A stretch of DNA of 64,000 nt from Dyadobacter sp. Leaf189 (GTDB lineage Bacteria; Bacteroidota; Bacteroidia; Cytophagales; Spirosomataceae), in NCBI RefSeq assembly GCF_001424405.1, contig NZ_LMPS01000004.1, positions 740,537 through 804,536 on the forward strand, in the 5' to 3' direction. Below, one piece after another: positions 32,670-51,635 of this stretch. The position numbers and the translations under genes are program-made. Numbering within the stretch: the first letter of the stretch is position 1; every line of letters begins with the position of its first letter. The notes under the pieces were generated by a model. The model searched no databases and had not been told where the DNA came from. It worked only from the letters and a program-made list of their open reading frames with translations.

Positions 32670-32686
32670 GCCCTAAACTTTGAAAT

Positions 32687-34183
32687 ATGAAACTTTCTAA
32701 AATAGCATTCAAGAAAATCCTTCCCCTCGTTGCGCTTGCATTGGGAACCGGTTCCTGCCAGTTGGAAGAAGAAGTTTACTCTTCGATCTTTGTCGAATCC
32801 TTTTATAAAACGGCCTCCGATTCTGAAAAAGGCTTGCTGTCAGTTTACGATGCCCTTAGCAGCCTTTACGGCGGTCCGGCTGCCACCATGGTACCTGATT
32901 TCAGCGCAGATCAGGTCTATCCGCGTGGCGTGGTAGGCCGCAACTCACTAACCTTATTCACGGTAGAACCAACTTATACAGTTCAGAAAAGTGCAGGTCG
33001 CACCAATGAATCGCCTCAGCAGCTCTGGATATCATCGTATAGTGGAATAGAAAGAGCCAACTGGATCATTACCAAAGTCCCGGACGCAACGATGGACGAG
33101 ACCCGGAAGAAACAAATCTTGGGAGAGGCTTACTTTCTGCGCGCTTTTTACTTCTGGACGCTCACCAAGAATTTCGGAGACGTGGTGGTAAAAACCGAAC
33201 CCAGCGTGACAGAAACCGAAGCCTATGCTCCGAAAAGTGCGGCAGCAGATGTTTACAAACAAATTTACAGCGATCTCGATCAGGCAGGACAGTCCGGGCT
33301 TGTCTCCTACCCTGCTAATGAAAAAGGGCGGCCTTCCAAAGAAGCCGTAGATGCGCTTTATGCCAAAGCTGCACTTTACAATCAGGACTGGGCGAAGGCG
33401 CTGGAAAAGGCAGAAGCTGTTATTAATTCTGGCAAATACGCTTTGCTGCCCAATGTAATGGATGTTTTCAGTTACCTGAAAGAAGATGAAGCGCGCCGGG
33501 AGAATATCTGGGCTTACGAAGCGGATCCTATTACGCCAGGAAACGGGCACCAGCTCACCAGTTTGGCTGGTCCGGTCGGCAGTGCGGGTGTGGAGTATTC
33601 AAAAACCTCCTATGGTTCGATGTTCGCCTATATGTCGTTTTTCAATTCATTTGATCCAAAAGACAAGCGCCGACAGTTACTGGACACTACTTTCATTGAT
33701 AAATCTGGCAAATGGGTTCCTCAGAAAAGCATTACACCCATAACTACGGATGCTGTTCTGATAAAGAAATACCAGGATCCCGTTTCCAGCACAGGTTTGA
33801 TCCCCAACATACCGATTCTGCGGATGGCGGATATTTACCTCATTGCCGCAGAAGCAGAGGCGCGTCTGAACGGACCTTCCGCTAAGGCTTATGAATTCAT
33901 CAATGCTGTCCGCACAAGAGCGGGCCTGGCCGACCTTGCAAAAGGATTGACCAAAGATGCTTTTATCGACGCCGTGATTCAGGAGAGATCGTGGGAATTG
34001 TTTGCCGAGGGCGACCGCTGGTACGACCTCACGAGAACAAACAAATTCCTCACCGTGATTCCCAAGGCGGTTAACTCCGTCTATCCTTCACGCCCGGTTC
34101 AACCCAAAAACAAATACTTCCCAATTCCCCAGGACGAGATCAATGCAAACCCGCTGATTGAACAGAACCCGGATTGGAAGTGA
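32687..34183 (+). CDS. SusD/RagB family nutrient-binding lipoprotein
   Basis: A 498-residue partner of the preceding SusC. The signal peptide ends in the lipobox 'LGTGSCQLEEE' (Cys near residue 24). 'LGEAYFLRAFYFWTLTKNFGD' is the conserved SusD helical motif, and the C-terminal 'VIQERSWELFAEGDRWYDLTR' and 'KYFPIPQDEINANP' match the family. It would cap the SusC barrel and bind the glycan at the cell surface. Confidence 0.94.
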   Translation: MKLSKIAFKKILPLVALALGTGSCQLEEEVYSSIFVESFYKTASDSEKGLLSVYDALSSLYGGPAATMVPDFSADQVYPRGVVGRNSLTLFTVEPTYTVQKSAGRTNESPQQLWISSYSGIERANWIITKVPDATMDETRKKQILGEAYFLRAFYFWTLTKNFGDVVVKTEPSVTETEAYAPKSAAADVYKQIYSDLDQAGQSGLVSYPANEKGRPSKEAVDALYAKAALYNQDWAKALEKAEAVINSGKYALLPNVMDVFSYLKEDEARRENIWAYEADPITPGNGHQLTSLAGPVGSAGVEYSKTSYGSMFAYMSFFNSFDPKDKRRQLLDTTFIDKSGKWVPQKSITPITTDAVLIKKYQDPVSSTGLIPNIPILRMADIYLIAAEAEARLNGPSAKAYEFINAVRTRAGLADLAKGLTKDAFIDAVIQERSWELFAEGDRWYDLTRTNKFLTVIPKAVNSVYPSRPVQPKNKYFPIPQDEINANPLIEQNPDWK

Positions 34184-34396
34184 GGCAATTTTGAATGATT
34201 GAATGAGTGAATGAATGAATGGTTGGTCACAATCGGCCGCAGCGCGGCCTCCTGTTTATAGAAACTGGCATTCCCCAAACAATCCCGAGCTCCGGAGGAG
34301 CTTCCTGGAAAACGAGCTGTAAAGAGAAAATGAATAAAGGTCCATGTAACAATCCGTTGTAGACCTTTTTTTACCTAAAATCAATGTGAATACAAT
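34184..34396. other. Intergenic region with tetranucleotide repeat and terminator
   Basis: Just after the SusD stop a short (TGAA)n-like run covers about 34190-34220. Small GC-rich palindromes such as CCGCAGCGCGG and GAGCTCC...GGAGCT follow. A terminator-like hairpin with arms AAAGGTC (34336-34342) and GACCTTT (34362-34368) and a T-tract ends near 34372, just before the next gene. This suggests that SusCD transcription is at least partly ended here. Confidence 0.55.
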
Positions 34397-35332
34397 ATGC
34401 TAAGTGTCGCTTTCTTCCTATCGCTTTTCTTGAACAACCCCTCCTTCGTTCCCCGGAATGAAAAGGTGAAGGAATTCAGGATCGTGGAGAATGACACGCT
34501 GACTTATACATTGAAACTCGCGCTTGACGACAAAGGCCGCCCGCAGTATTTTTTCAGAAACATTTTCACACCGGTTTGCTACACCAATGAATGCAAACCG
34601 GTGTATATCAATTTTTACTGGGACTTGCTGGGTAACTATATGCGGTACGACCTTCCCAAAAACAAAGTGCTCACAAAAGTGGATCACGACGAGTTTAAGG
34701 AAGAGGATTACCAGAAGTTGCAGGATATTCTCGCGCAACCCAACTCCATTTTCGCAGACCTCAAAATGGAGGATCTCATCACAACAGGTACTGAAGACCT
34801 CACGGATTCAGTGGATGTAAAAGCCGGTGCTACCTTGAAAACCATCAAAAATCAGGTGATCGACGGCGCAGTTTATACCTGCTATACCCTCTGGCAAATC
34901 GCCTACGGAAAAGCGGTACCCGAAATGCAGAAGATCATCGAAAGCTACACCGACGACAAGCTGCTGCACAGCTTCCTGACCAGCAACAATTACCATTATC
35001 AATATTGGGCAATGGAAAAAGTGGTAGGTAAGGATGGAAGTGTGTCAAAACCTTTTGAACAAGACTTGCAGCAGATCATCGCCGGCAAAAATATTTTTAC
35101 GGCCAAATATGCTTTGCAGCATGTGAACAACTCCTTCTTCGAAAGCGAAGCAAGGCAGGTCTGGCTCTGGGAAAGCTATCAGAAAGCTGCCTATCCATTG
35201 CAGATCACAATGTTGAAAAAGCTGGCCAATATTCCGCTCACCAGCTCACTCGCAAACAACCTTAAAGCCGCATTAACCAATGCAAACCAGGAACAAGCCT
35301 CGCTAATCAATCAAATACTGGCAAAAAACTAA
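34397..35332 (+). CDS. Secreted protein with flavinylation-like motif, possible ApbE substrate
   Basis: A 311-residue protein with a short N-terminal hydrophobic signal (LSVAFFLSLFL). It contains 'DVKAGATLKTIKNQVIDG' at residues 140-157. DxxAGAT resembles the ApbE flavinylation consensus Dxx(S/T)GA(T/S), in which the last Thr (here Thr146) receives FMN, with Ala in place of Ser/Thr. A Cys pair CYTNEC (61-66) and 'VYTCYTLWQIAYG' flank this region. The C-terminal third is helical and HEAT-like. The FMN-binding interpretation is inference, supported by an ApbE gene two genes downstream; no characterised family is recognised. Confidence 0.55.
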   Translation: MLSVAFFLSLFLNNPSFVPRNEKVKEFRIVENDTLTYTLKLALDDKGRPQYFFRNIFTPVCYTNECKPVYINFYWDLLGNYMRYDLPKNKVLTKVDHDEFKEEDYQKLQDILAQPNSIFADLKMEDLITTGTEDLTDSVDVKAGATLKTIKNQVIDGAVYTCYTLWQIAYGKAVPEMQKIIESYTDDKLLHSFLTSNNYHYQYWAMEKVVGKDGSVSKPFEQDLQQIIAGKNIFTAKYALQHVNNSFFESEARQVWLWESYQKAAYPLQITMLKKLANIPLTSSLANNLKAALTNANQEQASLINQILAKN

Positions 35333-35374
35333 ACTCATGAAAACACCTGACAAATTGCTAAACCCCTTCAAAGT

Positions 35375-35479
35375 CCCCGGGCTAAAGCCCGGGGCAATGG
35401 ATTATTTGTTCAATTTCTGTTGGCTGAAGCCAACCCGACCAATAGATTTTTTAATCAATTCCCGTTGGCTTCAGCCAAC
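35375..35479. repeat. Cluster of three GC-rich palindromes (REP-like)
   Basis: CCCCGGGC-taaa-GCCCGGGG lies at 35375-35394, followed by GTTGGCTGAAGCCAAC at 35419-35434 and GTTGGCTTCAGCCAAC at 35464-35479. These are typical extragenic palindromes. They sit between the secreted protein gene and the FAD oxidoreductase, within an open frame that is probably not translated. Confidence 0.7.
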
Positions 35480-35485
35480 GGAAAA

Positions 35486-35593
35486 GACAACAAGAGAGAC
35501 AATAAGAAAGACAATAAGAGAGACAACAAGAGAGACAACAAGAGAGACAATAAGAAAGACAATAAGAGAGACAATCGAGAAGACAATGGGAAA
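35486..35593 (+). repeat. Nine-copy 12 bp tandem repeat at a gene start
   Basis: Nine units of the pattern GACAAnAAGAnA (GACAATAAGAGA and close variants), the last two diverged. The final unit contains the ATG (35586) used as the start of the oxidoreductase. The repeats are purine-rich and free of stops in the gene's frame. A change in copy number would preserve frame but alter the leader. Confidence 0.8.
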
Positions 35594-37397
35594 CATGATT
35601 AGAAAGATGATCATATCATTCGTATTTCTTCTGTCTTTGTCTGTCTCTGCCCAAAATCACGTTTTTGTCGAAACAGAATCGTTTACCGACAAAGGCGGCT
35701 GGGTAATTGATCAGCAGTCTTTTGTAGTAATGGGCTCGTCGTACTTAATGGCGCACGGAATGGGGCGACCTGTGAAAGATGCGACTACTACAGTCAATTT
35801 TCCTAAGACGGGCAAATACCGAATGTGGGTGCGTACCAAAGATTGGGCGCCGTTCCCCAAAGGTCCGGGCAAGTTTCAGCTTCTGGTTGATGGAAAAGCA
35901 GCCGGTCAGGTATTTGGTGAAAGCGGGTCCGATGAATGGAAATGGTACGACGGAGGCCAGGTGGATATCAAGTCTGCCGAAACAAAGCTCCTGATGAAAG
36001 ACCTGACGGGCTTCAACGGTCGCTGCGACGCGATTTTGTTTACTGATGATCTGAAATTTACCCCGCCCAACAAGCTCGAAGAGCTGACTGCCTTCCGGAA
36101 AAAACTGCTGCATCTGACTGACAAACCTGTCGAAGCCGGCCAGTTTGATCTGGTGGTAGTCGGCGGCGGCATTGCCGGGACTTGTGCTGCCATTTCTGGC
36201 GCTAGAATGGGACTTAAAGTTGCATTGATCCAGGACAGGCCCGTTTTGGGAGGAAATAACAGTTCTGAAATCCGGGTGCATTTAATGGGCGACGTGGACA
36301 AAAACCACTATCCCAAGCTCGGCCGCATTGTGCGGGAAATGGACAATGGTGATCCCGGAAACGGTAACCCGGATGCAAAAGAATACGGCGACGCGCGCAA
36401 GATATCCATCGTAAAAGCCGAGCCGAATATTTCCCTCTTTCTGAACACGCATGTTTATAAAGTGGAAAAAGAGAACGATATCATCACCGCGGTAGTGGGC
36501 CGGGATATTGCTACCAATAAAGAGACACGTTTTGCAGGCTCCTTCTTCTCCGACTGCACCGGCGACGGAACGATCGGTTTCCTGGCTGGCGCGGAGTTCA
36601 GAATGGGACGTGAGAGCAAGGCCGAAACAGGCGAGTCACTCGCGGCGGAAAAGTCGGACGATTTTACATTAGGTACCTCAAATTTGTGGGCTTCGCTCCC
36701 GCGCGACACCGTTTCTTCATTCCCGGAAACACCCTGGGCGATCCAGTTTTCGGACGAATACCACATTGACGAACCCAAGGCTGACTGGCAATGGGAAACA
36801 GGGTTTGGCAACTTCAATACCATTACTGATGCTGAGAAAATCCGCGATCACAACCTGCGCGCGATCTATGGAAACTGGTCTTATTTAAAAAAGAACAAAG
36901 CCGCGAAGTACGCGAAGCATGAGCTGGCTTGGGTTGCCTATATCGGTGGTAAAAGGGAATCGAGACGCATTATCGGTGATCATATCCTGAACCAGATGGA
37001 CATTCAGGAAGGTAAATTTTATCCCGACGGTTCGGTAACTGCTACCTGGACCATCGACCTGCATTTTCCCGACGCCAAGAACAGCAAGTACTTTGAAGGC
37101 CAGGAGTTTTTTGCCGGAACAAAACACATCAAAGTGGCGCCTTACACGATCCCCTATCGCTGTTTGTATTCCAAAAATATCCAGAATCTGTTCATGGCCG
37201 GGCGGAATATCAGCACCACGCACGTTGCATTCGGCAGCACGCGGGTAATGCGTACCTGCGGCATGATGGGCGAAGTGGTAGGCTTTGCAGCATCTCTGAC
37301 CAAAAAGTACAGAACCACTCCGCGCGGCGTGTACGAACAACATTTACCGGAATTAATGGGAATCCTGAAAGGAGAAACCCTCGCCCCGCAGCCTTGA
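35586..37397 (+). CDS. Secreted FAD-dependent oxidoreductase (PF12831-type) with N-terminal carbohydrate-binding-like domain
   Basis: About 604 residues from the ATG at 35586. The frame extends upstream through repeats, but this ATG gives a normal signal peptide ('MIISFVFLLSLSVSAQ'). A beta-rich domain (about residues 25-150; 'GKYRMWVRTKDWAPFPKGPG') resembles carbohydrate-associated domains of xanthan-lyase-like proteins. The FAD domain begins 'DLVVVGGGIAGTCAAISGARMG' (GxGxxG loop near residue 195) and continues 'VLGGNNSSEIRVHLMGD', with C-terminal 'MAGRNISTTHVAFGSTRVM'. Oxidation of a sugar or glycoside is likely from context, but substrate and electron acceptor are unknown. ApbE follows after 22 bp. 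Confidence 0.8.
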   Translation: MGNMIRKMIISFVFLLSLSVSAQNHVFVETESFTDKGGWVIDQQSFVVMGSSYLMAHGMGRPVKDATTTVNFPKTGKYRMWVRTKDWAPFPKGPGKFQLLVDGKAAGQVFGESGSDEWKWYDGGQVDIKSAETKLLMKDLTGFNGRCDAILFTDDLKFTPPNKLEELTAFRKKLLHLTDKPVEAGQFDLVVVGGGIAGTCAAISGARMGLKVALIQDRPVLGGNNSSEIRVHLMGDVDKNHYPKLGRIVREMDNGDPGNGNPDAKEYGDARKISIVKAEPNISLFLNTHVYKVEKENDIITAVVGRDIATNKETRFAGSFFSDCTGDGTIGFLAGAEFRMGRESKAETGESLAAEKSDDFTLGTSNLWASLPRDTVSSFPETPWAIQFSDEYHIDEPKADWQWETGFGNFNTITDAEKIRDHNLRAIYGNWSYLKKNKAAKYAKHELAWVAYIGGKRESRRIIGDHILNQMDIQEGKFYPDGSVTATWTIDLHFPDAKNSKYFEGQEFFAGTKHIKVAPYTIPYRCLYSKNIQNLFMAGRNISTTHVAFGSTRVMRTCGMMGEVVGFAASLTKKYRTTPRGVYEQHLPELMGILKGETLAPQP

Positions 37398-37419
37398 GTA
37401 ACATACTGATCTGCTGATT

Positions 37420-38433
37420 TTGAAAAGTTCGTTTGCGCTCCTTTTAATGGTATTTCAAATGCTCGTTCCCGCGGTGAATGCAAAAGCTGCCGGGGACGAG
37501 CCTATGATTTCCATTTCAGGCCAGGCGCAGGGTACTACTTACCATATCAAATATTTTGATCAGCAGAGCCGAAATTTCAAAGTACAGATCGACTCTATTC
37601 TCGCGGATTTTGATAAGTGTCTGTCATTGTACCGAAAAGATTCAGAGATAGTTGCGTTCAATAACAGCACCGGATCGCATCGGTTCAGGTCTCCATATTT
37701 TTATCCTGTTTTACAAAGATCCCGGGAAATATACGCAGCTACCAATGGCGCTTTCGACCCTACTATTATGCCGCTGACAGAAGCACTGGGATTTGGTGCG
37801 AAGAGAACAGATCCCGAGCTGGCGAATGTGGATTCACTGCTTCAATATGTTGGCTTTGAGAAAATTAGCTTTAATGCAGATTCTGTTACAAAGATGAAAG
37901 CGGGTGTGAGGCTGGATATGAACGGGATCGCGCAGGGGTATTCGGTCGATATTGTGAGCGCATTTCTCAGGAGTCGGAATATCGACCGGTTTATGGTCGA
38001 GATCGGGGGCGAAGTAGTGTGTTCGGGAAATAAGAATGATAATCTTCCCTGGACCGCGGGTATTGAAAATCCATTGAAACGCGGACAATTGTTTGCGACT
38101 GTGAAACTCACGGATTTGGCGATGACGACTGCGGGTAACTACAACAATCATTTTACTAGAAACGGCCGCGTTTTCAACCATATCATCAATCCAAAAACGG
38201 GTTCTATGGAAGAAACGTCGCTGCTAAGCGTCACCGTTTTTTCCAAAGATGCGATCACAGCTGACGGATATGATACCGCGTTTTTTGTAATGGGACTGGA
38301 AGCGACAAAGCAGTTTTTATCACAACAAAATGACCTGGAAGCCTACCTGATCTATACAGACGAAAAAGGAAAAGTAAGCAGGTACGTGACCGAAGGAATG
38401 AAGGAATTGATCAAAGAAATACCTAACCCATGA
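37420..38433 (+). CDS. apbE: FAD:protein FMN transferase ApbE
   Basis: A 337-residue exported flavin transferase that attaches FMN covalently to Thr/Ser of periplasmic or membrane proteins. Key segments: 'SGQAQGTTYHIKYF' near residue 30, 'FDPTIMPLTEALGFG' near 115, 'RLDMNGIAQGYSVDIVS' near 165, 'VEIGGEVVCSGNK' near 195, 'HIINPKTGSMEE' near 255 and 'ADGYDTAFFVMGLEATKQF' near 280. Together these are diagnostic. The start is TTG followed by a signal peptide ending 'NAKAA'. It overlaps the next gene by 4 bp. No Rnf/Nqr genes are present, so its substrate here is probably a local secreted protein. Confidence 0.92.
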   Translation: MKSSFALLLMVFQMLVPAVNAKAAGDEPMISISGQAQGTTYHIKYFDQQSRNFKVQIDSILADFDKCLSLYRKDSEIVAFNNSTGSHRFRSPYFYPVLQRSREIYAATNGAFDPTIMPLTEALGFGAKRTDPELANVDSLLQYVGFEKISFNADSVTKMKAGVRLDMNGIAQGYSVDIVSAFLRSRNIDRFMVEIGGEVVCSGNKNDNLPWTAGIENPLKRGQLFATVKLTDLAMTTAGNYNNHFTRNGRVFNHIINPKTGSMEETSLLSVTVFSKDAITADGYDTAFFVMGLEATKQFLSQQNDLEAYLIYTDEKGKVSRYVTEGMKELIKEIPNP

Positions 38434-41000
38434 AATTTACCACAACGATATTCATCTCGCTACTGATCTCAGGAGCAGCATTTGGCCAGAAAAAATACCT
38501 GAACAGTCTCAGTAATGACCACGTCAGAGTAGTGTGGCAGGGAGACAATAAAGGCACATTTCCGATCGGTGTTTTGCAGGTTAAAAAGGATGGAAAATGG
38601 ATTGATGGGCCCAAGCCTTCCGGCGAGTATACTTTGTTGTATTCGGCCACAAAACCCTCCGGAGAGCCTACCGAAAGTTTTGAAAAAATAACCGGCGGAA
38701 CATTTCCTGAGAAATCCTATCATTATCAGCAGGAACAATGGAAGGAAAGCATCAATGATGTTTCTCTCAATAAAGCCGGTCAGGCGATACATTTCCTGCC
38801 TGCCAAAATGCTGGTCAAACCGGATGCGATTGAGTTTTCAAAGGAAACCGAAGTTGCTACCGTCACCGGCAACTGGCGTTTCGATCCGCAAAATCCGACG
38901 GATATCCTGGTGAAAATGACGGTGAAAGCGAAAACAATAGGCTACTTTTCAATGGCCACTCCTACGCTGGGAACCGTGCCTGCAGAGCAGCTTGGCTGGA
39001 CTTCCGTGCCGGGTTATTTCCAGGGAAATGCATTGCAAAAGAACTTCGCACTCGCTTATGCTTACGGTCACGGCGTACCCGACCGGCCGGTGATCTACCG
39101 CGAGCGTTGTGCAAGTACATTGAGTCCGCTGGTAACTACCAAAAATGGTGTGACCGTATCGGTAATTCCCGAGCCGGGGCTGGCGAGAGACCCCTGGAAA
39201 AAGGACAAGATCACGCAAACGGACTGGCACATTGGTTTGTCGCACATGAACCGGAAAGGTCAGCTTGCGCCTACCATTTACTACCCTGTTTTGGGTGAGG
39301 AAAAATCGGAACTCAATGCAGGCGAGGAATTTACCTTTTCATTCAGGTACAGCATCATTGCCGGCGACTGGTTCCAGGCAATCAAGCATGCAGCGAATGA
39401 CATTTATCAATTTGACGAAACGCTGGCCCTCCGCAAAAACAAACAGTCGCAGACCGACCGCATTCAGCAAATGCATCTGTATCTCACCAATCCTGAAACT
39501 TCACTTTGGAATATTGAGGAGTATGAAGGCAAGCAGATCGGCGCGCAATCCTATCTGGGCGGCGTGGTGGGTTCTAATAAGGATGCGATGAAAAATGCGG
39601 ACTACGGCGCCATGTGGATGCTGGCCCATGCGACCAACGATCTGGAGCTGAAAGAAAAAGTGCTGCCACCTGCGCTCAATTTCAAGCTGGTGCAGCAGGA
39701 AACTGATAAAGGCTTTTTCAATGGTGCAATCGAAGGCCAATATTATCTCGCCAAAAGCAAAAAGTTTGTTGAAGAATGGGGAGAAGTGGTGGAGCCTATC
39801 GCGCTGACATATTATGTGACGCTCGATGTGGGCAATATGCTCTTGTTCGAGCCAGGTAATGCCGAATTGAAGGAAAGATTGCGGCTGGGTGCCGATAAGT
39901 TGCTGAGCTGGCAGAAATCTGACGGAAGCTGGGCAGTGGCTTACGACCGGAAAAATGAACAGGAACTTTTCAGGGATATCAAAGATGTGCGGCCGACTTT
40001 TTACGGGATGATTGTCGCGTATAGGATTCTAAAAGATGAAAAGTACCTAAGAGCTGCGCAAAAAGGGGCTGACTGGTTTATCAAAAATGCAGTAGAAACG
40101 GGTTCTTTCCTTGGCGTTTGCGGAGATGCACGTTATGCGCCAGATTTCGCCACCGGCCAATCAGCGCAGGCTTTGCTGGATTTGTATGATTTAACCAAAA
40201 ACAAAAAATACCAGGACGCGGCGGTTACCTGCGCTAAAATTTATACCACCTCCATTTACACACATCCTATTGCGAGTCACGATCCAAAAACGGTGAACGG
40301 AGTAGCCCGGGAGGATTGGGAGATCAGCCAAACCGGCCTCAGCTTCGAACATGGCGGCATTTTCGGTTCTGCTGTCCGCCACGGCCCTATTCAGCTGGCG
40401 AGCCACGCGGGGATGTTTATCCGGATGTACAAACTGACTGGCGAGCAGATCTTCGCAGATATGGCACGCTCGGCTGCGATTGGCCGCGATGCATTTGTGG
40501 ACAGCAAAACGAGCGTCGCTTCCTATTACTGGAATGCAATGAACCGCGGTGCTGGCCCCTACCCGCACCATGCGTGGTGGCAGGTCGGCTGGATTACCGA
40601 TTACCTGTTGTCGGAAGCGGAGTTGAGATCCAATGGAAAAATCAGCTTTCCGAGAGGCTTTGTCACACCGAAAGTAGGCCCGCACCAGACTTATGGTTTC
40701 GAGCCGGGAAATGTATTTGGAGATCAGGCCAACCTGGTGATCAAAGCGGGACTTGCGACACCGGATCATGCTGCTATTGAATGCATTACCGCGCAGTCTA
40801 CCTCAAAAAACAGCACTTATATAATCCTGATGAACAACAGTGCGGACGCGACGGATTTTGCATTGAAAATTGATGAGTCCAAAATCGGCAGTTCCAAAAA
40901 GATCAATGCAATGAAATGGCTGGAAGACAACCATCCTGCGAAAATAGAACAATTCACAATTCCGCCCTTTGGTTTGAAGACACTTGAAGTTCAGTATTAG
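38430..41000 (+). CDS. Large secreted protein with (alpha/alpha)6-barrel-like region
   Basis: An 856-residue protein with signal peptide ending 'SGAAFG', translationally coupled to apbE (ATGA overlap). The N-terminal ~300 residues look beta-rich. The middle 350 residues have repeated helical hairpins ('KYLRAAQKGADWFIKNAVETG', 'TGQSAQALLDLYDLTKNKKY') as in six-hairpin glycosidases. The C-terminus is a small beta domain. A glycan-acting enzyme (hydrolase or lyase) is likely from the locus, but no family-specific catalytic motif is recognised. Confidence 0.6.
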   Translation: MKFTTTIFISLLISGAAFGQKKYLNSLSNDHVRVVWQGDNKGTFPIGVLQVKKDGKWIDGPKPSGEYTLLYSATKPSGEPTESFEKITGGTFPEKSYHYQQEQWKESINDVSLNKAGQAIHFLPAKMLVKPDAIEFSKETEVATVTGNWRFDPQNPTDILVKMTVKAKTIGYFSMATPTLGTVPAEQLGWTSVPGYFQGNALQKNFALAYAYGHGVPDRPVIYRERCASTLSPLVTTKNGVTVSVIPEPGLARDPWKKDKITQTDWHIGLSHMNRKGQLAPTIYYPVLGEEKSELNAGEEFTFSFRYSIIAGDWFQAIKHAANDIYQFDETLALRKNKQSQTDRIQQMHLYLTNPETSLWNIEEYEGKQIGAQSYLGGVVGSNKDAMKNADYGAMWMLAHATNDLELKEKVLPPALNFKLVQQETDKGFFNGAIEGQYYLAKSKKFVEEWGEVVEPIALTYYVTLDVGNMLLFEPGNAELKERLRLGADKLLSWQKSDGSWAVAYDRKNEQELFRDIKDVRPTFYGMIVAYRILKDEKYLRAAQKGADWFIKNAVETGSFLGVCGDARYAPDFATGQSAQALLDLYDLTKNKKYQDAAVTCAKIYTTSIYTHPIASHDPKTVNGVAREDWEISQTGLSFEHGGIFGSAVRHGPIQLASHAGMFIRMYKLTGEQIFADMARSAAIGRDAFVDSKTSVASYYWNAMNRGAGPYPHHAWWQVGWITDYLLSEAELRSNGKISFPRGFVTPKVGPHQTYGFEPGNVFGDQANLVIKAGLATPDHAAIECITAQSTSKNSTYIILMNNSADATDFALKIDESKIGSSKKINAMKWLEDNHPAKIEQFTIPPFGLKTLEVQY

Positions 41001-41004
41001 AAAC

Positions 41005-41100
41005 CTTTTTGTCACCCTGAGCGGAGTCGAAGGGAAGGTGCGTCAGCTACATTGTGCGCGCAGGGTAGCGTGCTTCGACTCCGCTCAGCATGACAAAAAG
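41005..41100. repeat. Imperfect 28 bp inverted repeat (CTGAGCGGAGTCGAAG type)
   Basis: Arms 41005-41032 and 41073-41100 match as reverse complements at 26 of 28 positions, around a 40 nt centre. The arm contains CTGAGCGGAGTCGAAG, a sequence often seen as a dispersed intergenic repeat in Bacteroidota. It could form a strong hairpin between the barrel-protein gene and the symporter gene. Confidence 0.75.
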
Positions 41101-41139
41101 CGGCAGGAGCAGATTGAAAGTTAGCATTTAAACAACAAC

Positions 41140-42861
41140 ATGAACAACAACATCGATACCATTGTCATCCTTGTCTTCTCCGCATTTGTGCTCGGGATTG
41201 GGATGCTTTTTGCGCGGACGGGACGGAACCTGAAATCCTTTTTTGCCGGAGGCGAGGCAGTTCCCTGGTTTATCGGGGGTCTGTCCTTATTTATGAGCTT
41301 TTTCTCGGCCGGAACGTTTGTGGCCTGGGGCTCCATTGCCTACAAGCATGGCTGGGTGGCGATTACCATTCAATGGACGATGTGCATTGGTGCCTTGGTT
41401 ACCGCACTTTACCTGGCGCCACGCTGGAAAAGAACGGGTGCGCTTACCGCCGCTGAATTCATCCGCGAGCGGCTTGGGCTGCCCGTCCAGAAGACTTACA
41501 TCTTCATTTTTACACTGGTTTCGGTTTTTATCAAAGGCTCGGTTCTGTATCCGGTCGCCCGGCTTGTGAGTGCCTCGCTGGATCTTCCATTAGTGCCTTG
41601 TACGATCGGATTAGGGCTTTTTATGATTGCTTACACGGCTGTCGGCGGACTTTGGGCGGTGATGGTGACGGACATCCTGCAATTTGTGGTCTTATCTGCT
41701 GCGGTGTTCATTCTGCTTCCCTTGTCTTTTGAAAAAGTAGGTGGCTGGGAAGGCTTTACGCAAAATGTTCCTGATGATTTTTTCAATTTGCTAAATGGCG
41801 AATACACTTTCGGCTTTGTCCTCGCATTTGTCATTTACCATATCTGCTACATCGGTGGAAACTGGACCATGGTGCAGCGTTATACGAGCGTCGACAGTGA
41901 GAAATCGGCCAGGAAAGTCGCACTTCTTTTTGCAGGCTTATACCTGATCAGCCCGGTGATCTGGATGTTCCCGCCTATGATCTACAAGGCAATCAATCCC
42001 GCATTGACAGGGTTGGATACTGAAAATGCCTATTTGATGATCTGCAAACTGGTGTTACCTCCTGGCTTATTGGGCCTGATGCTCACCGGAATGTATTTCT
42101 CCACTTCTGCGAGTGCCAATACCGCTTTAAATGTAGTATCCGCTGTTTTTACCAATGATATCTATAAAGGAATGGTCAACCCGGCGGCTTCCGACAAGCA
42201 ACTGATCCGTGTTGCGCGGGGCTCTTCTTGGTTTTTCGGTTTGGGCATGATCGGCATTGCATTGCTGGTACCGGCGGCTGGCGGCATTGTGGAAGTAGTT
42301 TTGAGCATTTCTGCCATTTCCGGCGGACCGCTGCTGGCACCGCCGCTCTGGGCTTTGTTTTCCAAAAGGCTGAATGCGAAAACAACGCTTTGGGTTACCG
42401 GTATCGGACTGCTTGTCAATCTGTTTTTCAAAATCCTGTCTCCGCTGTTGCTTGATTTCAAGCTATCGCGGGGAATGGAAACGATCGTGGGTGTGGGACT
42501 GCCGCTGCTGCTTTTGCTGGCTTATGAACTTTGGGCACGGTCCAAAAACCGCATTGCGGCTGAATACCTGACGTATCTCCAAACTAAAGAACAAAAGCGT
42601 ATTGACGCATTGGAAATCAATGAAGAGGAAGTTGTTGAGATCAAGCGCCAAAACAGGTTTGGCTTGCAGGTCATTGCAGGAGCCCTGCTTTTCACGGCGG
42701 TTATGCTTTTTATCCTGAGTCTTCTGACTACTTCTGGGGCGATGATCACTGCCATTATCGCAACAGTAGTCTTGTTTTCAGCATTGATTCCCTTTGTAGC
42801 GTCGCGGAAAGTCAGTGTGGACGTGCTACTACCAGTTCAAGAAAATTATCCGCACGAATGA
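41140..42861 (+). CDS. Sodium:solute symporter (SSS family)
   Basis: A 573-residue inner-membrane transporter with about 13 transmembrane helices. 'AGGEAVPWFIGGLSLFMSFFSAGTFV' near residue 30 and 'GLLGLMLTGMYFSTSASANTALNVVSAVFTND' parts near residue 310 are conserved SSS segments. Bacteroidetes members in glycan loci import monosaccharides or acidic sugars with Na+. A charged cytoplasmic segment near residue 480 ('EQKRIDALEINEEEVVEIKR') separates the last helices. It probably takes up the product of the neighbouring periplasmic enzymes. Confidence 0.9.
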   Translation: MNNNIDTIVILVFSAFVLGIGMLFARTGRNLKSFFAGGEAVPWFIGGLSLFMSFFSAGTFVAWGSIAYKHGWVAITIQWTMCIGALVTALYLAPRWKRTGALTAAEFIRERLGLPVQKTYIFIFTLVSVFIKGSVLYPVARLVSASLDLPLVPCTIGLGLFMIAYTAVGGLWAVMVTDILQFVVLSAAVFILLPLSFEKVGGWEGFTQNVPDDFFNLLNGEYTFGFVLAFVIYHICYIGGNWTMVQRYTSVDSEKSARKVALLFAGLYLISPVIWMFPPMIYKAINPALTGLDTENAYLMICKLVLPPGLLGLMLTGMYFSTSASANTALNVVSAVFTNDIYKGMVNPAASDKQLIRVARGSSWFFGLGMIGIALLVPAAGGIVEVVLSISAISGGPLLAPPLWALFSKRLNAKTTLWVTGIGLLVNLFFKILSPLLLDFKLSRGMETIVGVGLPLLLLLAYELWARSKNRIAAEYLTYLQTKEQKRIDALEINEEEVVEIKRQNRFGLQVIAGALLFTAVMLFILSLLTTSGAMITAIIATVVLFSALIPFVASRKVSVDVLLPVQENYPHE

Positions 42862-42899
42862 CCTTTTAGTTAATCCATTTGAATCCCTTAACGCATTTT

Positions 42900-44927
42900 A
42901 TGAACAATAAATTTAGAGCGCTGCTCTTGGTTATCATCTGCTGGGCTTCCCAAAACAGCTTCGCGCAGTACCATATCAAAGATCCCGGTGCGATTTCGCT
43001 GAATGGCGACTGGTGGTTTGTACTGGACCCGGCCGAGCTGGGGATTTCAAATCAGTGGTATAAAGAAGGGACCGCCAAAACTGCGCGGCAGGATAAGGTG
43101 ACCGTACCGCATTGTTTTTCGACAGACCCGCGCTATGAATTTTACACAGGAACCGCCTGGTACCGCAAGTTTTTCCCCTGGAAACCGGCTTCGGGCAAAC
43201 GCGTGATCCTGCATTTCGATGCGGCTTATTACAAGACTTACGTTTGGCTCAATGGTCAAAAGGTCGGGGAGCATGAAGGTGGGTATACCCCATTCAGTTT
43301 TGATGTGACTGATTTGCTCAAAGAAAACAACGAGCTGGTGGTAGCTGTGAACAACAATACCTGGAAAACCAACACCATTCCCGGAGTGAAGGATAATAAC
43401 AAAATGGACGATTCTTTTGTCGGCTGGGTCAATTACGGCGGGCTGATCCGCCCGGTTTATCTCACCATCGAGCCGGAGGTTTATGCTGAAAATATCAAGA
43501 TTGAAACCACACCGGATCTTGCCAAAAACACCGCGAGTATTACTGCCCGGATTCGCATAAAAAATGCATCTGCAAATGCAGTTTCACCGAAAGCAGAATT
43601 CACTGTATTCCAGGATAAAAAACTTGTTACACTGAAATGGAAAGCAAAACCGGCGAACATACCAGCCGGACAAACTGCGCTCATGGAAGCGGAAGCGAGC
43701 ATTCCCGCCGCCTACGTAAAGTTGTGGGACCTCGACCAGCCAAATCTGTACGAACTGAAAGCCACCGTTGGTACTGACTCGATCGCATCCCATTTTGGCA
43801 TAAGGAAAGTTGAAGTCCGTAATGCACAGATCCTGCTGAATGGTAAGCCATTGAAAGTGGGAGGCGGTAACCGGGTACTCGATTATCCCGGTCTTGGTTC
43901 TATGGAGCCGGATTGGCTCGTTGAAAAAGACTTCCGCCTGATGAAAGAAGCTGGTATGGAGTTCCAGCGGCTTACGCATTATACACCTGCCGAATACTAT
44001 TATGACCTGGCCGACAAATTCGGTATGCTGATTATCACAGAAGCGGGTAACTGGCAGCTGACAGGCAAGCAAATGGACAATGATTCCATGCGCGCCAATT
44101 TCAGGTCGCAATTCCGGGAAATGGCCGAGCGCGACTGGAACCACCCGAGCGTGATTGCTTACAGCGTCGGCAATGAATATTTGTCTGAAGAACCCGCCGG
44201 TCAGCGCTGGACGAAGGATATGATCGCATTCGCCAGGGAAGTGGACCCTACCCGGTTATACACTTTTGCGAGCATGCGCCTGAATGCATTGCCTGCGAAA
44301 CCGGAGGACGAAGCCAGTCAGTATGTGGATTTTGTTTCGACCAACACCTATGGCGGTCACGCGAAATCCCTCGATCACATTCATAAACTATATCCCGACA
44401 AGCCCATTTTCATCAGCGAATGGGGCACGCGCTCCGACGGAAAGGGCGGCGAGGAATACCAGGCGCAGCATATCCGGGACGTAATTGCCGAAGTACGTAA
44501 AAGACCTTACGTGGCCGCAACTTCCTGGTGGACTTACAACGATTATCGCAGCAAGTTGTTTGGTACCAATGCAAATGGTTTCCGTCCCTGGGGGATCGTC
44601 GGCGCCGACCGTTCTCCCCGCCGCGCTTACAAGGTGCATCAGGAGGAATTGTCGCCGGTGACAATTGAAAAAGTGGGTTACCAGTCTGGCGAATTGGGAG
44701 CTAACACATTGACGATCAAAGTCACAGCACGGGCTGATTTCCCTGCGCGAAAGCTATCCGGCTACTACATTAAAACTTCGGACACAAAAGTCAGCATCCC
44801 CGAACTAAACCCCGGCGAAAGCAGGGAAGTACTTGTTCCCATCCGCGGATTTGAAGGAAAAACACATATCTCGATCTATAAACCAACGGGTTTCCTCACA
44901 ACGGAAGCTGAGTTCGCATTGGAATAA
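42900..44927 (+). CDS. Glycoside hydrolase family 2 protein (beta-glucuronidase/galactosidase-like)
   Basis: A secreted 675-residue GH2 enzyme. The ATG at 42900 gives a signal ending 'ASQNSFAQ'; the upstream TTG is unlikely. The sugar-binding jelly-roll has 'LHFDAAYYKTYVWLNGQKVGEHEGGYTPFSFDVT' features, an Ig-like domain follows, then the TIM barrel with acid/base Glu426 ('SVGNEYLS') and nucleophile Glu507 ('FISEWGTRS'). The shape is closest to short GH2 beta-glucuronidase-like enzymes. Which sugar it removes is not clear from sequence. Confidence 0.9.
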   Translation: MNNKFRALLLVIICWASQNSFAQYHIKDPGAISLNGDWWFVLDPAELGISNQWYKEGTAKTARQDKVTVPHCFSTDPRYEFYTGTAWYRKFFPWKPASGKRVILHFDAAYYKTYVWLNGQKVGEHEGGYTPFSFDVTDLLKENNELVVAVNNNTWKTNTIPGVKDNNKMDDSFVGWVNYGGLIRPVYLTIEPEVYAENIKIETTPDLAKNTASITARIRIKNASANAVSPKAEFTVFQDKKLVTLKWKAKPANIPAGQTALMEAEASIPAAYVKLWDLDQPNLYELKATVGTDSIASHFGIRKVEVRNAQILLNGKPLKVGGGNRVLDYPGLGSMEPDWLVEKDFRLMKEAGMEFQRLTHYTPAEYYYDLADKFGMLIITEAGNWQLTGKQMDNDSMRANFRSQFREMAERDWNHPSVIAYSVGNEYLSEEPAGQRWTKDMIAFAREVDPTRLYTFASMRLNALPAKPEDEASQYVDFVSTNTYGGHAKSLDHIHKLYPDKPIFISEWGTRSDGKGGEEYQAQHIRDVIAEVRKRPYVAATSWWTYNDYRSKLFGTNANGFRPWGIVGADRSPRRAYKVHQEELSPVTIEKVGYQSGELGANTLTIKVTARADFPARKLSGYYIKTSDTKVSIPELNPGESREVLVPIRGFEGKTHISIYKPTGFLTTEAEFALE

Positions 44928-44967
44928 GCGTCGCGCTTTGAACCAGTGACGTAAAAAATCTAACAAA

Positions 44968-47256
44968 ATGATACAAGAAGAAGCTTCTGCGAAAAGAACA
45001 CCGAAAACCATTGAATCCGCGGCTGATCTGGTGATTGTAGGAGGAGGATTATCGGGTACCTGCGCGGCGATTACTGCGGCGCGGGCGGGTGTGAAAGTAA
45101 CGTTGATCCAGGACAGGCCGGTGCTCGGTGGAAACTGTTCCAGCGAAGTAAGACTGTGGATACTCGGCGCTACCTCTCACATGGGAAACAACAACCGCTG
45201 GGCACGCGAAGGCGGCGTGATCGACGAGATTATGCTTGAAAATATCTACCGGAACCCTGATGGTAACCCACTGATTTTCGATACTGTTTTGCTCGAAAAA
45301 GTAATCCAGGAACCTAATATTACGCTGCTGCTCAATACTGCGGTTTTTGATTTGGACAAAAAAACAGGGGATGGAGAGGAAGGTAATGAAATAGAGGCAG
45401 TTCACGCATTTTGCAGTCAGAACAGCACGAAATACAAAGTGTCGGCTCCCTTGTTTTGTGACGCCTCCGGCGACGGAATCCTGGGTTTTCTCGCCGGGGC
45501 TGCATTCAGAATGGGCGCGGAATCAATGGAGGAGTTTGGTGAGAAATTTGCGCCGGATAAAGCCTACGGCGAGCTGCTGGGGCATTCCATGTATTTTTAT
45601 TCCAAAGATGCGGGCCGGCCAGTGAAGTTCATTCCTCCCTCCTATGCATTGCAGGATATTACCGAGATACCACGCTATAAAACCTTTAATCCCAAAGATT
45701 TCGGCTGTCGGCTCTGGTGGCTGGAATTTGGCGGGAGAATGGATACGGTACACGATACTGAGCAGATCAAATGGGAACTCTGGAAGGTCGTATACGGTGC
45801 GTGGAATTACATTAAAAATTCAGGCGAGTTTCCCGAATCGGAGAACATGACGCTCGAATGGGTGGGTACCATTCCGGGGAAGCGCGAAAGCAGGCGATTT
45901 GAAGGCGATTACATGCTTAAACAGCAGGATATTGTTGAGCAAACGACATTTAAAGATACAGCTGCTTTCGGCGGTTGGAGCCTGGATCTGCACCCGGCCG
46001 ATGGTGTTTACAGCGACCAATCAGGTTGTAATCAGTGGCATAGCAAAGGCGTTTACAGCATTCCTTACAGATGCTATTACAGTCGGAATATCACTAACCT
46101 CTTTATAGCAGGCCGCATTATCAGCGCAACGCACGTGGCATTTGCTTCGACGCGGGTAATGGCAACGAGTGCAGTTGGCGGGCAGGCGGTAGGTATCGCG
46201 GCGGCGCTTGCAAAAAAGTACGGCTGTACGCCGCGCGAGATAGGCCAACAGCATTTAAAAGAATACCAGCTTGAACTTTGGAGATCGGGACAGTATCTGC
46301 CGCAAACAGCTATTTCCGATCATGAAGATCTGGTTCAAAAAGCTTCCGGCATTTCAGCTTCATCAGAGCTGCGGCTTACGGGACTACCCGGCTCGGATCA
46401 CTGGTCCCTTATTGTGCATTCAGTAGCGCAAATGTTGCCGGTTCAGGGTAAAATGCCATTTGTGAAGGTTTGGGTTGATGTTTTGGAAAATACCACTTTG
46501 GAAGTAGAGTTGCGCAAAAGCAGCAAGGCATTCAATCACACTCCTGATGTGACAATCGAAAGAAAATCGCTGACATTAAATCAGGGAAGGCAGGAAATCC
46601 AGCTCGATTGGGACGCTTCGTTCGACGAAGAATGCTACGCTTTTGTTTGTTTTTTGAAGAACGAAAAAGTCAAAATACAATACAGCGACAAGCGAGTAAC
46701 GGGCGTTTTAACAGTTTTCAATGCGACCAATCCTGCTGTTTCAAACTACGGAAAACAGGAGCCGACCGAAGATCTGGGGGTAGATACCTTTGAATTCTGG
46801 TGTCCGCAACGAAGACCTGAGGGAAAAAACCTCGCATTTCAGCTTGGCGGGCGCCTCAATGCATTTGGAACAGAAAACCTGAAAAACGGACTGCACCGAC
46901 CGATAGCCGCGCCTAATGCGTGGGTATCCGCACTGGAAGACGAGGCTCCATCTGTGACAATTAATTGGAATGAAGCAGTCATTATCAACCAGATAGATCT
47001 TGTTTTTGATACGGATTCAGATCATCCAATGGAAAACGTGATCTATGTTCACCCGGAAAATGTAATGCCTTTCTGCGTAACAGCGCTCGAACTCTTGGAT
47101 GATCAGGGAAATGTAATTGGCAGCATCAGCGAAAACCACCAGACCAGGCGGCGCATCAGGCTTGAAAAGCCGGTTAGTACAAGATCGTTGAAACTAAATA
47201 TCGTTAGCAAAAACCCGGACATTCCAGCTGCACTTTTCGAAATACGCTGCTACTGA
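44968..47256 (+). CDS. FAD-dependent oxidoreductase (PF12831-type)
   Basis: A 762-residue protein without a signal peptide, so probably cytoplasmic. The FAD domain starts 'ADLVIVGGGLSGTCAAITAARAG' (about residues 20-42), then 'LIQDRPVLGGNCSSEVRLWILG' and 'IAGRIISATHVAFASTRVMATS', matching the secreted oxidoreductase upstream closely in these motifs. The last ~300 residues are a beta-rich region specific to this protein. Since the paralogue is secreted and this one is not, the locus may oxidise related substrates on both sides of the inner membrane. Confidence 0.8.
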   Translation: MIQEEASAKRTPKTIESAADLVIVGGGLSGTCAAITAARAGVKVTLIQDRPVLGGNCSSEVRLWILGATSHMGNNNRWAREGGVIDEIMLENIYRNPDGNPLIFDTVLLEKVIQEPNITLLLNTAVFDLDKKTGDGEEGNEIEAVHAFCSQNSTKYKVSAPLFCDASGDGILGFLAGAAFRMGAESMEEFGEKFAPDKAYGELLGHSMYFYSKDAGRPVKFIPPSYALQDITEIPRYKTFNPKDFGCRLWWLEFGGRMDTVHDTEQIKWELWKVVYGAWNYIKNSGEFPESENMTLEWVGTIPGKRESRRFEGDYMLKQQDIVEQTTFKDTAAFGGWSLDLHPADGVYSDQSGCNQWHSKGVYSIPYRCYYSRNITNLFIAGRIISATHVAFASTRVMATSAVGGQAVGIAAALAKKYGCTPREIGQQHLKEYQLELWRSGQYLPQTAISDHEDLVQKASGISASSELRLTGLPGSDHWSLIVHSVAQMLPVQGKMPFVKVWVDVLENTTLEVELRKSSKAFNHTPDVTIERKSLTLNQGRQEIQLDWDASFDEECYAFVCFLKNEKVKIQYSDKRVTGVLTVFNATNPAVSNYGKQEPTEDLGVDTFEFWCPQRRPEGKNLAFQLGGRLNAFGTENLKNGLHRPIAAPNAWVSALEDEAPSVTINWNEAVIINQIDLVFDTDSDHPMENVIYVHPENVMPFCVTALELLDDQGNVIGSISENHQTRRRIRLEKPVSTRSLKLNIVSKNPDIPAALFEIRCY

Positions 47257-47412: not shown

Positions 47413-48585
47413 TTGAAGGAAGCGGCGGATTTTACACCCTCATCTGATACCAACGCAGCAAACGACTGGGAATCACTCGACGTAGCTTACATCGCGAGCG
47501 GAAATCCTGATGAAGATCGCCGGCTGGCTGCGATTGCACGGGAAAAAGGTCAGGTTGTTTACCTGCCCGACTTGCCGGGTGAATCGGACCTGCCTTTCAA
47601 CAAGCCTCTCGCAAATACCACTTCTGAAACAACTGCAAATCCGCACATTCATCCGGCACGCACTCCCCTTACCTGGGAAACGATCCAGCAAAAAGTATGG
47701 GCAGCGACTGTCCGCAAACGTACCCGGACCGAAGTAGCTGTCAATATTTTCTCTGCGATTGCATTAATGGTGCTCGGGCATCTGTTATTTACATTTTTCA
47801 CCTACGATCGCCTTACCGTGCTCTGGAATGAGCTGGAAGTAAATGAGAATTTTTTCTACTATGTACTCGGCGGGTTTGTCGCGCAGATGATCGACGGCGC
47901 ACTGGGAATGGCGTATGGCGTGACAGCGGCTACGTTTCTGCTGACTTTGGGCGTACCACCTTCGGCTGTGAGTGCGAGTGTGCACAGTTCTGAGATATTC
48001 ACCAGCGGGGTTTCGGGGTACATGCACCTGAAATTCGGCAATGTAAACAGCAAACTTTTCAAAAAGATCCTGTTCCCCGGCGTCCTCGGCGCGATTACGG
48101 GTGCTTACCTACTGTCTTCACTCGAACAATATATCTACATTATCAAGCCATTGGTGGCAGTTTACACGCTGATACTGGGAATTCTTATCGTTCAGAAAGC
48201 GTTAAAAAAGCGTGTCGAAAAAAAGCCAATCCGGAAAATTGGCTGGCTTGCAATGGCGGGCGGAACGCTCGATTCGATAGGCGGCGGCGGCTGGGGACCA
48301 ATCGTAACTTCCACGCTGATCGCCCGCGGACGTCACCCGAAATATACCATCGGCTCGGTTAACCTGGCTGAATTTTTCGTTTCGCTTGCCAGTTCGATCA
48401 CATTCATCAGCATCATCGGTTTTTCGCATTGGCAGGTCGTCCTGGGATTGATACTAGGCGGAATGGTAGCCGCCCCAATCGCCGCCAACCTTTCACGCAG
48501 ACTACCGATCAAAACAATGATGATCATGGTAGGTACCATTGTTATTATTGTGAGTTTGAGGATAATTTATATGGTTATTTTTTAG
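47413..48585 (+). CDS. TSUP (TauE/SafE) transporter with partial siroheme-synthase N-terminal domain
   Basis: A 390-residue protein from a TTG start. Residues 1-80 include 'LDVAYIASGNPDEDRRLAAIAREKGQ', close to the second half of the Met8/CysG Rossmann domain ('DLVIAATDDPELNRRVAEAAR'-type), but the first half with the GGGxVA loop is absent. The rest is a TSUP transporter with about eight helices ('GGFVAQMIDGALGMAYGVTAATFLL', 'GGTLDSIGGGGWGPIVTSTLI' features). In sulfur clusters TSUP proteins export sulfite or import sulfate-related anions. The fused half-domain is unlikely to be an active dehydrogenase. Confidence 0.8.
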   Translation: MKEAADFTPSSDTNAANDWESLDVAYIASGNPDEDRRLAAIAREKGQVVYLPDLPGESDLPFNKPLANTTSETTANPHIHPARTPLTWETIQQKVWAATVRKRTRTEVAVNIFSAIALMVLGHLLFTFFTYDRLTVLWNELEVNENFFYYVLGGFVAQMIDGALGMAYGVTAATFLLTLGVPPSAVSASVHSSEIFTSGVSGYMHLKFGNVNSKLFKKILFPGVLGAITGAYLLSSLEQYIYIIKPLVAVYTLILGILIVQKALKKRVEKKPIRKIGWLAMAGGTLDSIGGGGWGPIVTSTLIARGRHPKYTIGSVNLAEFFVSLASSITFISIIGFSHWQVVLGLILGGMVAAPIAANLSRRLPIKTMMIMVGTIVIIVSLRIIYMVIF

Positions 48586-48783
48586 CTAAAAGCTGTTAGC
48601 TGTTAGCAATTAGCTTTTAGCTTTTTAGGGAGGAAAGGGAGAATGGAGGAGGAAGGAAAGGATTAGGTAAGTTATAAGGGACGACCATCGATAGTTTTAC
48701 AAATAATTTAAAGTAAAGAGCTACAAGCTAACTGCTAACAGCCAAAAAGCTAATAGCTAAATGCTAAAAGCCAACAGCTTCCA
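48586..48783. repeat. Inverted AGCTGTTAGC-type repeats and purine-rich stretch
   Basis: A left block (48583-48629, AAAAGCTGTTAGCTGTTAGC and related words) is complementary to a right block (48719-48780, GCTAACTGCTAACAGCC and related words), around a GGAGGAAAGGGAGAATGG-like purine-rich centre. It could fold into a large, imperfect hairpin between the TauE-type gene and metZ. No promoter box is obvious. Confidence 0.6.
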
Positions 48784-49971: not shown

Positions 49972-49995
49972 TAATCACTTAAAAACAGCTAGATC

Positions 49996-50340
49996 ATGCA
50001 CACATTAACAATTGAAATTCCAGATCAATTTGAGAAAAAAGAAGTGCTGCTTTCAATTGCAGTACAGCTGTTTAAAAAGGGAGCACTCGATGCGAAGCAG
50101 GCAGCAGATCTTGCAGACGTTTCATTGAATGATCTGTCTTATTATTCATTGCCGGAGGGTGATCCTGCAAAGGAACTGCTCGAACCAACCACGGAATACG
50201 CATCAACAGTAGAATGGATCGAAAGCATAAAACAGGAGCAGAGTTATAAGGGTTTTGACGAGGAAAGAATGAAAAAGCTTGCTGATAAAATGGACATACA
50301 AGAACCATTTGAGCTTTTACTTTCTCAGCTTAATAAATGA
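49996..50340 (+). CDS. UPF0175-like antitoxin
   Basis: A 114-residue protein. The first 50 residues match the UPF0175 pattern: 'LTIEIPDQFEKKEVLLSIAVQLFKKGALDAKQAADLADVS' features with a short helix-turn-helix. The C-terminal part has an acidic, amphipathic helix suitable for binding a toxin. It overlaps the following PIN-domain gene by 4 bp (ATGA), the classic antitoxin-toxin arrangement. It lies 24 bp after metZ. Confidence 0.75.
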   Translation: MHTLTIEIPDQFEKKEVLLSIAVQLFKKGALDAKQAADLADVSLNDLSYYSLPEGDPAKELLEPTTEYASTVEWIESIKQEQSYKGFDEERMKKLADKMDIQEPFELLLSQLNK

Positions 50341-50783: not shown

Positions 50784-50792
50784 TAAATCACC

Positions 50793-51497: not shown

Positions 51498-51635
51498 TGC
51501 GCTAGCCGTCGGCAATCAGCTGCCGGCAATCGAACTTTGCTTCCGCGATCTATAAATAATTTTGAGGCTTTAAGCCGACGGACGATTACCGAAAGCCGAT
51601 TGCCAAATAATTCTTGCAAGAAAAATTAAACAACC
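51498..51635. repeat. Inverted GCCGTCGGCAATC-type repeats
   Basis: Words of the form GCCGTCGGCAATC and GCCGGCAATCG on the left face their complements (GCCGACGG, GCCGATTGCC) on the right, with an AT-rich centre. The centre holds the promoter at 51537-51564. Confidence 0.55.
51537..51564 (+). promoter_or_regulatory. Candidate promoter for cysD
   Basis: TTG (51537-51539), a 17 nt spacer and TAATTTTG (51557-51564) match the consensus. It lies 72 bp upstream of cysD and within the loop of a repeat hairpin. Confidence 0.5.

Follow-up and report, generated by a model that had tools for sequence, protein, structure and literature searches.

What is a gene for ApbE, the transferase that attaches flavin mononucleotide (FMN) to proteins, doing in the middle of a polysaccharide utilization locus (PUL)? 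The question is raised by Dyadobacter sp. Leaf189, in which we analysed a stretch of 64,000 nucleotides (the window; C4:740537-804536 of the 6.07-Mb genome, with gene coordinates below given as window positions). Here apbE follows genes for an apparently secreted protein of 311 residues, which we term X311, and for a PF12831-type flavin adenine dinucleotide (FAD) protein, FAD1. An earlier note on this DNA had proposed that sugars or glycosides are oxidised in the periplasm and their electrons passed to a covalently bound flavin. We lean, without great firmness, towards a reading of this kind, in which FAD1 would oxidise a glycan-derived substrate, the electrons would pass to FMN carried by X311, and the product would be imported and handled by a second flavoprotein, FAD2.

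The pairing of X311 with a PF12831 protein is well supported. We assembled 88 X311 loci, consisting of the best 80 of 222 relatives in named genomes and 8 loci from a phylum sample, and in 87 of them a PF12831-like gene lies within 1.3 kb of X311 on the same strand; the exception, L199, has the order sulfatase, PF12831, ApbE, X311. To identify partners we used a profile built from flavoproteins in earlier loci; those in L063, L065, L067, L073, L199 and L200 were checked against Pfam PF12831, the rest being assigned by similarity. The 80 named-genome loci span Dyadobacter, Spirosoma, Runella, Larkinella, Chitinophaga, Parapedobacter, Olivibacter, Cyclobacterium and others, although some species among the 88 loci recur among those behind the search profile, and the named-genome loci are not independent of the genus set because many come from the same species. 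Apparent gaps (5/80 loci without a callable X311, and 2/75 without an adjacent PF12831 gene) were dismissed as artefacts of open reading frame (ORF) picking or small spurious ORFs, and a stop-to-stop recount finds both X311 and a PF12831-like gene within 1.3 kb in 80/80. In the phylum sample, 395 genomes drawn evenly, there are 10 confident X311 loci (two of them from the host genome) in 8 genomes, the host included; the PF12831-like gene is directly adjacent in nine, and ApbE intervenes in L199. Four weak matches (E 2e-5 to 9e-4) were left out of these counts because they are located in the repeat part of the protein.

Closer to home, X311 homologues are present in 30 of 37 genus genomes (the host included) and in 0 of the 22 others in that set, the X311 of the nearest named relatives, from Dyadobacter, being 93-94% identical to that of the window. 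Distant X311 paralogues (20-34% identity) also reside in SusC/D loci, and a PF12831-like gene is directly adjacent in 15 of the 16 such loci analysed (L063-L073 and L077-L081). One of them is a second X311-PF12831 pair in the host genome itself (C4:370558-374675, L073), whose flavoprotein, of about 1054 residues, has three PF12831 stretches and, by eye, a Tat-like start.

X311 is likely to be flavinylated by ApbE, a prediction that rests on its sequence. It carries the motif DVKAGAT at residues 140-146, with Thr146 the predicted FMN site, and Asp140, Ala145 and Thr146 are invariant in both of our X311 alignments. The ApbE site given in the accessible text of PMC12052999 is D-x-x-[S/T]-G-A-[S/T], and the window copy fails this strict form because it has Ala at position 4 where Ser or Thr is published. 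Ala may nevertheless be tolerated there, since a PF04205 (FMN_bind) protein at L177 carries DAIAGAT. A relaxed site, D-x-x-[ASTC]-[GS]-A-[ST], is found in 126 of 127 X311 ORFs and in 2 of the 1252 other ORFs of the same loci, counting by ORF over two locus sets that overlap in species. The one X311 ORF lacking it is a fragment of 106 residues, and the two others that have it are a SusD and an unclassified ORF; among the 88 loci, L200 lies outside the relaxed pattern, its X311 reading DALSGST.

Of the 88 loci, 44 also encode an ApbE linked to X311, the distant L199 among them. Against the window ApbE, that of L199 scores 219 bits and the other two of the three ApbE proteins of the host genome 95 and 73 bits, so the X311-linked ApbE looks like a lineage of its own. 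One of those two accompanies DUF2271 and PepSY, a described type of system; the three scanned neighbours of the other include no known substrate. FMN_bind has no match in the host genome, and is present in 20 of 60 genomes of the class. In L040, L061 and L062 a second X311-PF12831-like pair directly follows ApbE, so that two flavoprotein genes there appear to share one ApbE. The earlier note's candidate flavinylated protein is supported to this extent: X311 carries an ApbE-like site, and half of its near loci also have a linked ApbE.

What, then, is X311? No Pfam family reaches its cut-off (the best, OrtA, scores 13.9 bits against a cut-off of 27), and there is no NCBIfam match. Across 19 members we found no match to PF04205 at E 0.05, nor to Flavodoxin_4 or FMN_red in Pfam; HEAT_2 is matched in three, while matches to OrtA in three (best E 0.015) and to Dna2 in one (E 0.0045) were taken as chance. 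A model built from 31 sequences (pLDDT 83.9) predicts an N-terminal beta/alpha domain, with strands over residues 23-85 and a helix at 102-112, then a loop of low confidence up to the motif, another helix from immediately behind Thr146 onwards, and, over the rest of the chain, helical repeats that are of HEAT/armadillo-like type from about 186 to 311. This modelled order of strand, helix, motif loop and helix agrees with published FMN-domain crystal structures, described in the accessible text of PMC10339131 as running from three strands through a helix and a loop to a second helix, with the flavinylated Thr at its beginning. A fold search with the model gave armadillo/HEAT matches (best Z 11.8 over 126 residues), although such Z values may reflect a common arrangement only and the search covered mainly residues 186-311. 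Foldseek returned nothing at E 0.001 or better, and a sequence search of the PDB with X311 alone nothing at E 10; PDB 8p2b shows a weak likeness at the motif (E 0.7). Comparison by hhalign with PF04205 proteins from 23 loci, four of which yielded incomplete reading frames that were kept in the alignment, gave a probability of 54% over 119 columns (E 1.3e-4, for a single comparison), and with a partial FMN_bind set 41%, the alignment being limited to the motif. We see a fair chance that X311 represents a new family of ApbE substrates. It may be a distant relative of FMN-bind: the FMN-bind2 subtype, a domain of about 160 residues with inserts that enlarge its beta-sheet according to the accessible text of PMC11334425, is similar in size to the N-terminal part of X311, the two being likened by description only.

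The genes around X311 in the window, with the basis of each assignment, are as follows; signal peptides throughout were judged by eye only.

28139-29362, minus strand: LacI-family regulator, divergent from the PUL (Pfam and NCBIfam)
29502-32669, plus strand: SusC-type TonB-dependent transporter (TIGR04056, 931.8 bits)
32687-34183, plus strand: SusD-type lipoprotein (PF07980, PF14322)
34397-35332, plus strand: X311, 311 residues, apparently secreted candidate ApbE substrate (alignments, motif count, model)
35337-37397, plus strand: FAD1, PF12831 flavoprotein with a Sec-like signal and an N-terminal beta-type domain (Pfam)
37420-38433, plus strand: ApbE, FAD:protein FMN transferase with a Sec-like signal (PF02424, E 1.2e-73)
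38430-41000, plus strand: carbohydrate-active-type protein with a beta-sandwich, an (alpha/alpha)6 barrel and a signal peptide (model, fold search)
41140-42861, plus strand: sodium:solute symporter of the SSF family (PF00474, E 2.6e-37; TIGR00813)
42879-44927, plus strand: glycoside hydrolase family 2 (GH2) enzyme (PF02836/02837/00703)
44968-47256, plus strand: FAD2, second PF12831 flavoprotein, no signal peptide, predicted cytoplasmic (Pfam)

The co-directional run that the earlier note had drawn over 34397-47256 is therefore all present, on the plus strand and in the order given, and the PUL extends past it: from 29502 to 47256 the plus strand reads SusC, SusD, X311, FAD1, ApbE, barrel protein, SSF, GH2, FAD2, with the divergent LacI regulator upstream. 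By Pfam and NCBIfam the locus has the SusC/SusD pair and carbohydrate-active enzymes that define a PUL. The N-terminal stretch of the regulator ORF resembles an IS1/IS1595-type zinc-binding domain (NF050000; at 27.8 bits it falls narrowly short of the cut-off, 28).

This grouping of genes is not due to chance. In 29 loci from other genomes of the genus, SusC, SusD and FAD1 are found in 29, X311 (as called), the barrel protein, SSF and LacI in 28, GH2 in 27 and ApbE in 24; an FAD2 label falls in 27, in some cases on another PF12831 paralogue. Together with the near-universal pairing described above, this conservation disposes of the possibility that the genes are adjacent by accident in one genome. 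Among the named-genome loci, SusC matches occur in 67 and SusD matches in 69 of the 75 loci taken with 8-kb flanks. GH2 occurs in 30 of these 75, the flank often stopping short of the GH2 position, and Cyclobacterium-type loci read X311-FAD1-SSF-FAD2. Since GH2 was seen in 30/75 loci and ApbE is absent from half of the 88, the portable unit is X311 with its PF12831 partner, often accompanied by SSF and FAD2. The neighbourhood of ApbE, oxidoreductase and SusC/D that had been proposed thus survives as an X311-PF12831 pair conserved in SusC/D loci, whereas the full gene list does not travel with it. Two other genes recur beside X311. A CstA-type transporter directly follows it in L202 (8922-10364, by eye) and L205 (10930-12378, by Pfam), and a protein of about 820 residues lies just upstream in several Chitinophaga, Cyclobacterium and related loci (for example L141:5416-7896 and L062:3537-5993), the two scanned copies of which have no Pfam match.

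Both flavoproteins match PF12831 over their full length and contain its FAD-binding motif (E 1.4e-73 for FAD1, 6.8e-96 for FAD2). The FAD1 ORF appears over-called by about 86 residues, because most homologues begin near residue 87, placing its likely start near 35595. Between X311 and this start, at about 35470-35595, the DNA encodes a repeated RETIRKTIRETTRET-like string, which suggests short tandem DNA repeats in the leader. The N-terminal domain of FAD1, previously described as carbohydrate-binding-like, finds no significant counterpart in Pfam (Mann_GBD_bact comes closest, at E 0.056), and PDB sequence searches with FAD1, singly or as an alignment, gave Rossmann-motif matches only. The view of FAD2 as cytoplasmic is supported, by eye, in 22 of the 24 genus sequences displayed, which start without a signal peptide; in L040 and L161 the FAD2 label falls on another paralogue, whose start is Tat-like.

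The remaining enzymes bear on the sugar context of the locus. The barrel protein, which falls in no assigned family, has only sub-threshold Pfam matches, to GH88 and GH127, and a PDB sequence search with it alone gave one chance-like match, which we discarded. In its model (pLDDT 82.2), residues from about 329 to 745 form an (alpha/alpha)6 domain that compares with (alpha/alpha)6 carbohydrate enzymes at Z values up to 22.9 over 325 residues, resembling cellobiose 2-epimerase, GH76 and unsaturated glucuronyl hydrolase (Z 18-23). The best NCBIfam matches of the GH2 enzyme are beta-galactosidase GalA and beta-glucuronidase, with no equivalog cut-off reached, and its signal-peptide-like start, again by eye, makes it look secreted too. 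Other X311 loci have GH78 (L063), a sub-threshold GH43 match (L064), sulfatases (L141, L148, L199, L201 and L203) and, among the neighbours scanned, a Gfo/Idh/MocA protein (L062). From the context of SusC/D, GH2, the barrel protein, GH78, the sub-threshold GH43 and the sulfatases, we infer that the substrate class is sugar.

On the reading we favour, X311 and FAD1 would together make up a secreted dehydrogenase, each contributing one half. ApbE would attach FMN to Thr146 of X311; SusC/D would deliver a sugar or glycoside, from which FAD1 would take two electrons outside the cytoplasm; and the FAD of FAD1 would transfer them to the FMN covalently bound to X311. With its HEAT-repeat tail X311 might dock FAD1 or a respiratory acceptor, to which it would hand the electrons. 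The barrel protein and GH2 might then cleave the oxidised product before the Na+ symporter imports it and FAD2 handles it in the cytoplasm. Of these elements, the genes, the conserved pair, the motif and the link to ApbE are seen in the sequence; flavinylation, secretion, the direction of the electrons, the class of substrate, the order of the steps and the acceptor are inferences.

A number of observations weigh against this reading, and several of them touch on flavinylation. Half of the X311 loci (44 of 88) have no ApbE, and neither, within 20 kb, does any of the 16 distant-paralogue loci. ApbE is present somewhere in all 12 X311 genomes tested and in all 7 genus genomes without X311, and its presence was discarded as a marker for X311, being uninformative when 19/19 genomes are positive. 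The strict published site is found in only 72 of 127 X311 ORFs, and position 4 is Ala in 46 of 126 copies, the window copy among them. The likeness of X311 to FMN_bind is below significance; the lack of an FMN domain among the fold-search matches listed for X311 counts neither way, in a search that hardly covered the N-terminal domain. Even the pairing has a departure, L063, where two genes separate the X311 paralogue from the PF12831 gene. The absence of ApbE from these loci and the Ala at position 4 would both suit an explanation in which X311 is not flavinylated at all and serves as a structural or export partner of PF12831 enzymes, with ApbE acting on another protein. We consider this improbable, given that the motif Thr is invariant in both alignments, that the motif is so rare in the other ORFs, and that the linkage of ApbE to X311 recurs in the distant lineage of L199.

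The further points against the favoured reading concern substrate and acceptor. No PF12831 enzyme with known sugar activity was found in PDB sequence searches or the open-licence literature, as might be expected if X311 and FAD1 cooperated on a non-sugar substrate such as a phenolic aglycone, a sulfonate or a protein. The sulfatases of some loci, and the sulfur-assimilation-like genes directly downstream of the PUL, could be taken the same way. The prevalence of SusC and SusD in X311 loci, along with varied glycoside hydrolases, makes such a substrate unlikely. As for the acceptor, none in the membrane was recognised by Pfam among the window cluster genes. Electrons might instead flow in reverse, with FMN-X311 feeding FAD1, which, in the manner of fumarate-reductase-like flavinylated enzymes, would reduce an acceptor derived from the glycan, such as a keto or unsaturated sugar. 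The FAD-binding motif of FAD1 is common to flavocytochrome c fumarate reductases, and the accessible text of PMC8238504 has a section on fumarate-reductase-like PF00890 enzymes linked to flavinylation. The likeness of FAD1 to PF00890 is confined to 37 residues of that motif, though, against a full-length match to PF12831, and Pfam recognised no quinol- or NADH-linked input gene among the window cluster genes; there is, in our judgement, little probability of a reverse flow.

Flavinylated extracytosolic electron carriers and PULs are each already known. In fumarate- and urocanate-reductase-like flavinylated enzymes of the PF00890 family, an FAD enzyme exchanges electrons with covalent FMN; FAD1 differs in belonging to PF12831, in having the motif on a separate protein, X311, and in its PUL context. 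Glycoside oxidation within glycan breakdown is likewise familiar from the 3-keto-glycoside pathways of Bacteroidota and from cytochrome- and GMC-type sugar dehydrogenases, systems that typically use NAD-dependent Gfo/Idh/MocA enzymes or haem or GMC partners. Here there is a PF12831 enzyme with a probable flavinylated partner, X311.

Among ApbE-flavinylated extracytosolic electron-transfer systems, the accessible text of PMC8238504 describes the families FMN_bind (PF04205), DUF2271 and DUF3570, and reports that 4% of its genomes (670) have ApbE and no known substrate even after two new families were added. X311 resembles these systems in being apparently secreted, with a D-x-x-x-G-A-T site, and often beside ApbE and an oxidoreductase, and it would fill the role of substrate for an orphan ApbE. 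It differs in having no Pfam match to these families, and in its HEAT-like repeats, its SusC/D loci and its PF12831 partner. Nowhere does the main text of that paper use the words PF12831, polysaccharide, SusC, HEAT, carbohydrate or sugar. PMC11334425, whose accessible text also covers the ApbE substrates Flavodoxin_4 and FMN_red, likewise has neither PF12831 nor HEAT in that text. The window locus shares SusC, SusD, a regulator, a glycoside hydrolase and a transporter with PULs such as the carrageenan PULs of PMC5698469, and is set apart by its redox unit of FAD1, X311, ApbE and FAD2. The figure key in the accessible text of PMC5698469 lists AA3 and fumarate reductase/succinate dehydrogenase in some PULs; neither 'ApbE' nor 'flavin' appears in that text. 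We found no description in the open-licence literature of a PF12831-X311 pair in PULs with a linked ApbE, although one may exist elsewhere.

A broader claim would make X311 a new ApbE-substrate family and its pairing with PF12831 a general haem-free dehydrogenase of two proteins, plugged into different Bacteroidota PULs (rhamnosidase, GH2 and sulfatase loci), where it would oxidise glycans extracytoplasmically and feed respiration. We put this forward tentatively, regarding it as finely balanced and, if anything, slightly doubtful. If true, the usual view of PULs as systems that hydrolyse and import would gain a redox step, some of the ApbE genes left orphan in the 2021 survey would acquire a substrate, and the PF12831 enzymes of glycan loci would have a function.

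Outside the PUL, the window holds two further regions. Directly after it, at 47413-57123, are a TauE/SafE transporter (PF01925) and the sulfur-assimilation-like genes, which read by eye as MetB-, CysH-, CysD-, CysN-, sulfite-reductase- and SUMT-like. Of the 29 genus loci, each taken over 20 kb, 18 show TauE, and L062 and L129 have TauE-MetB. Within this run, at 49996-50783, a PIN-domain protein and its small upstream partner (UPF0175, below cut-off) are possibly a toxin-antitoxin pair. Upstream, at 15610-27517, lies a second PUL-like region with SusC, SusD, two proteins of the alpha-L-fucosidase family, a sigma/anti-sigma-like pair recognised by eye, and GH76 on the other strand.

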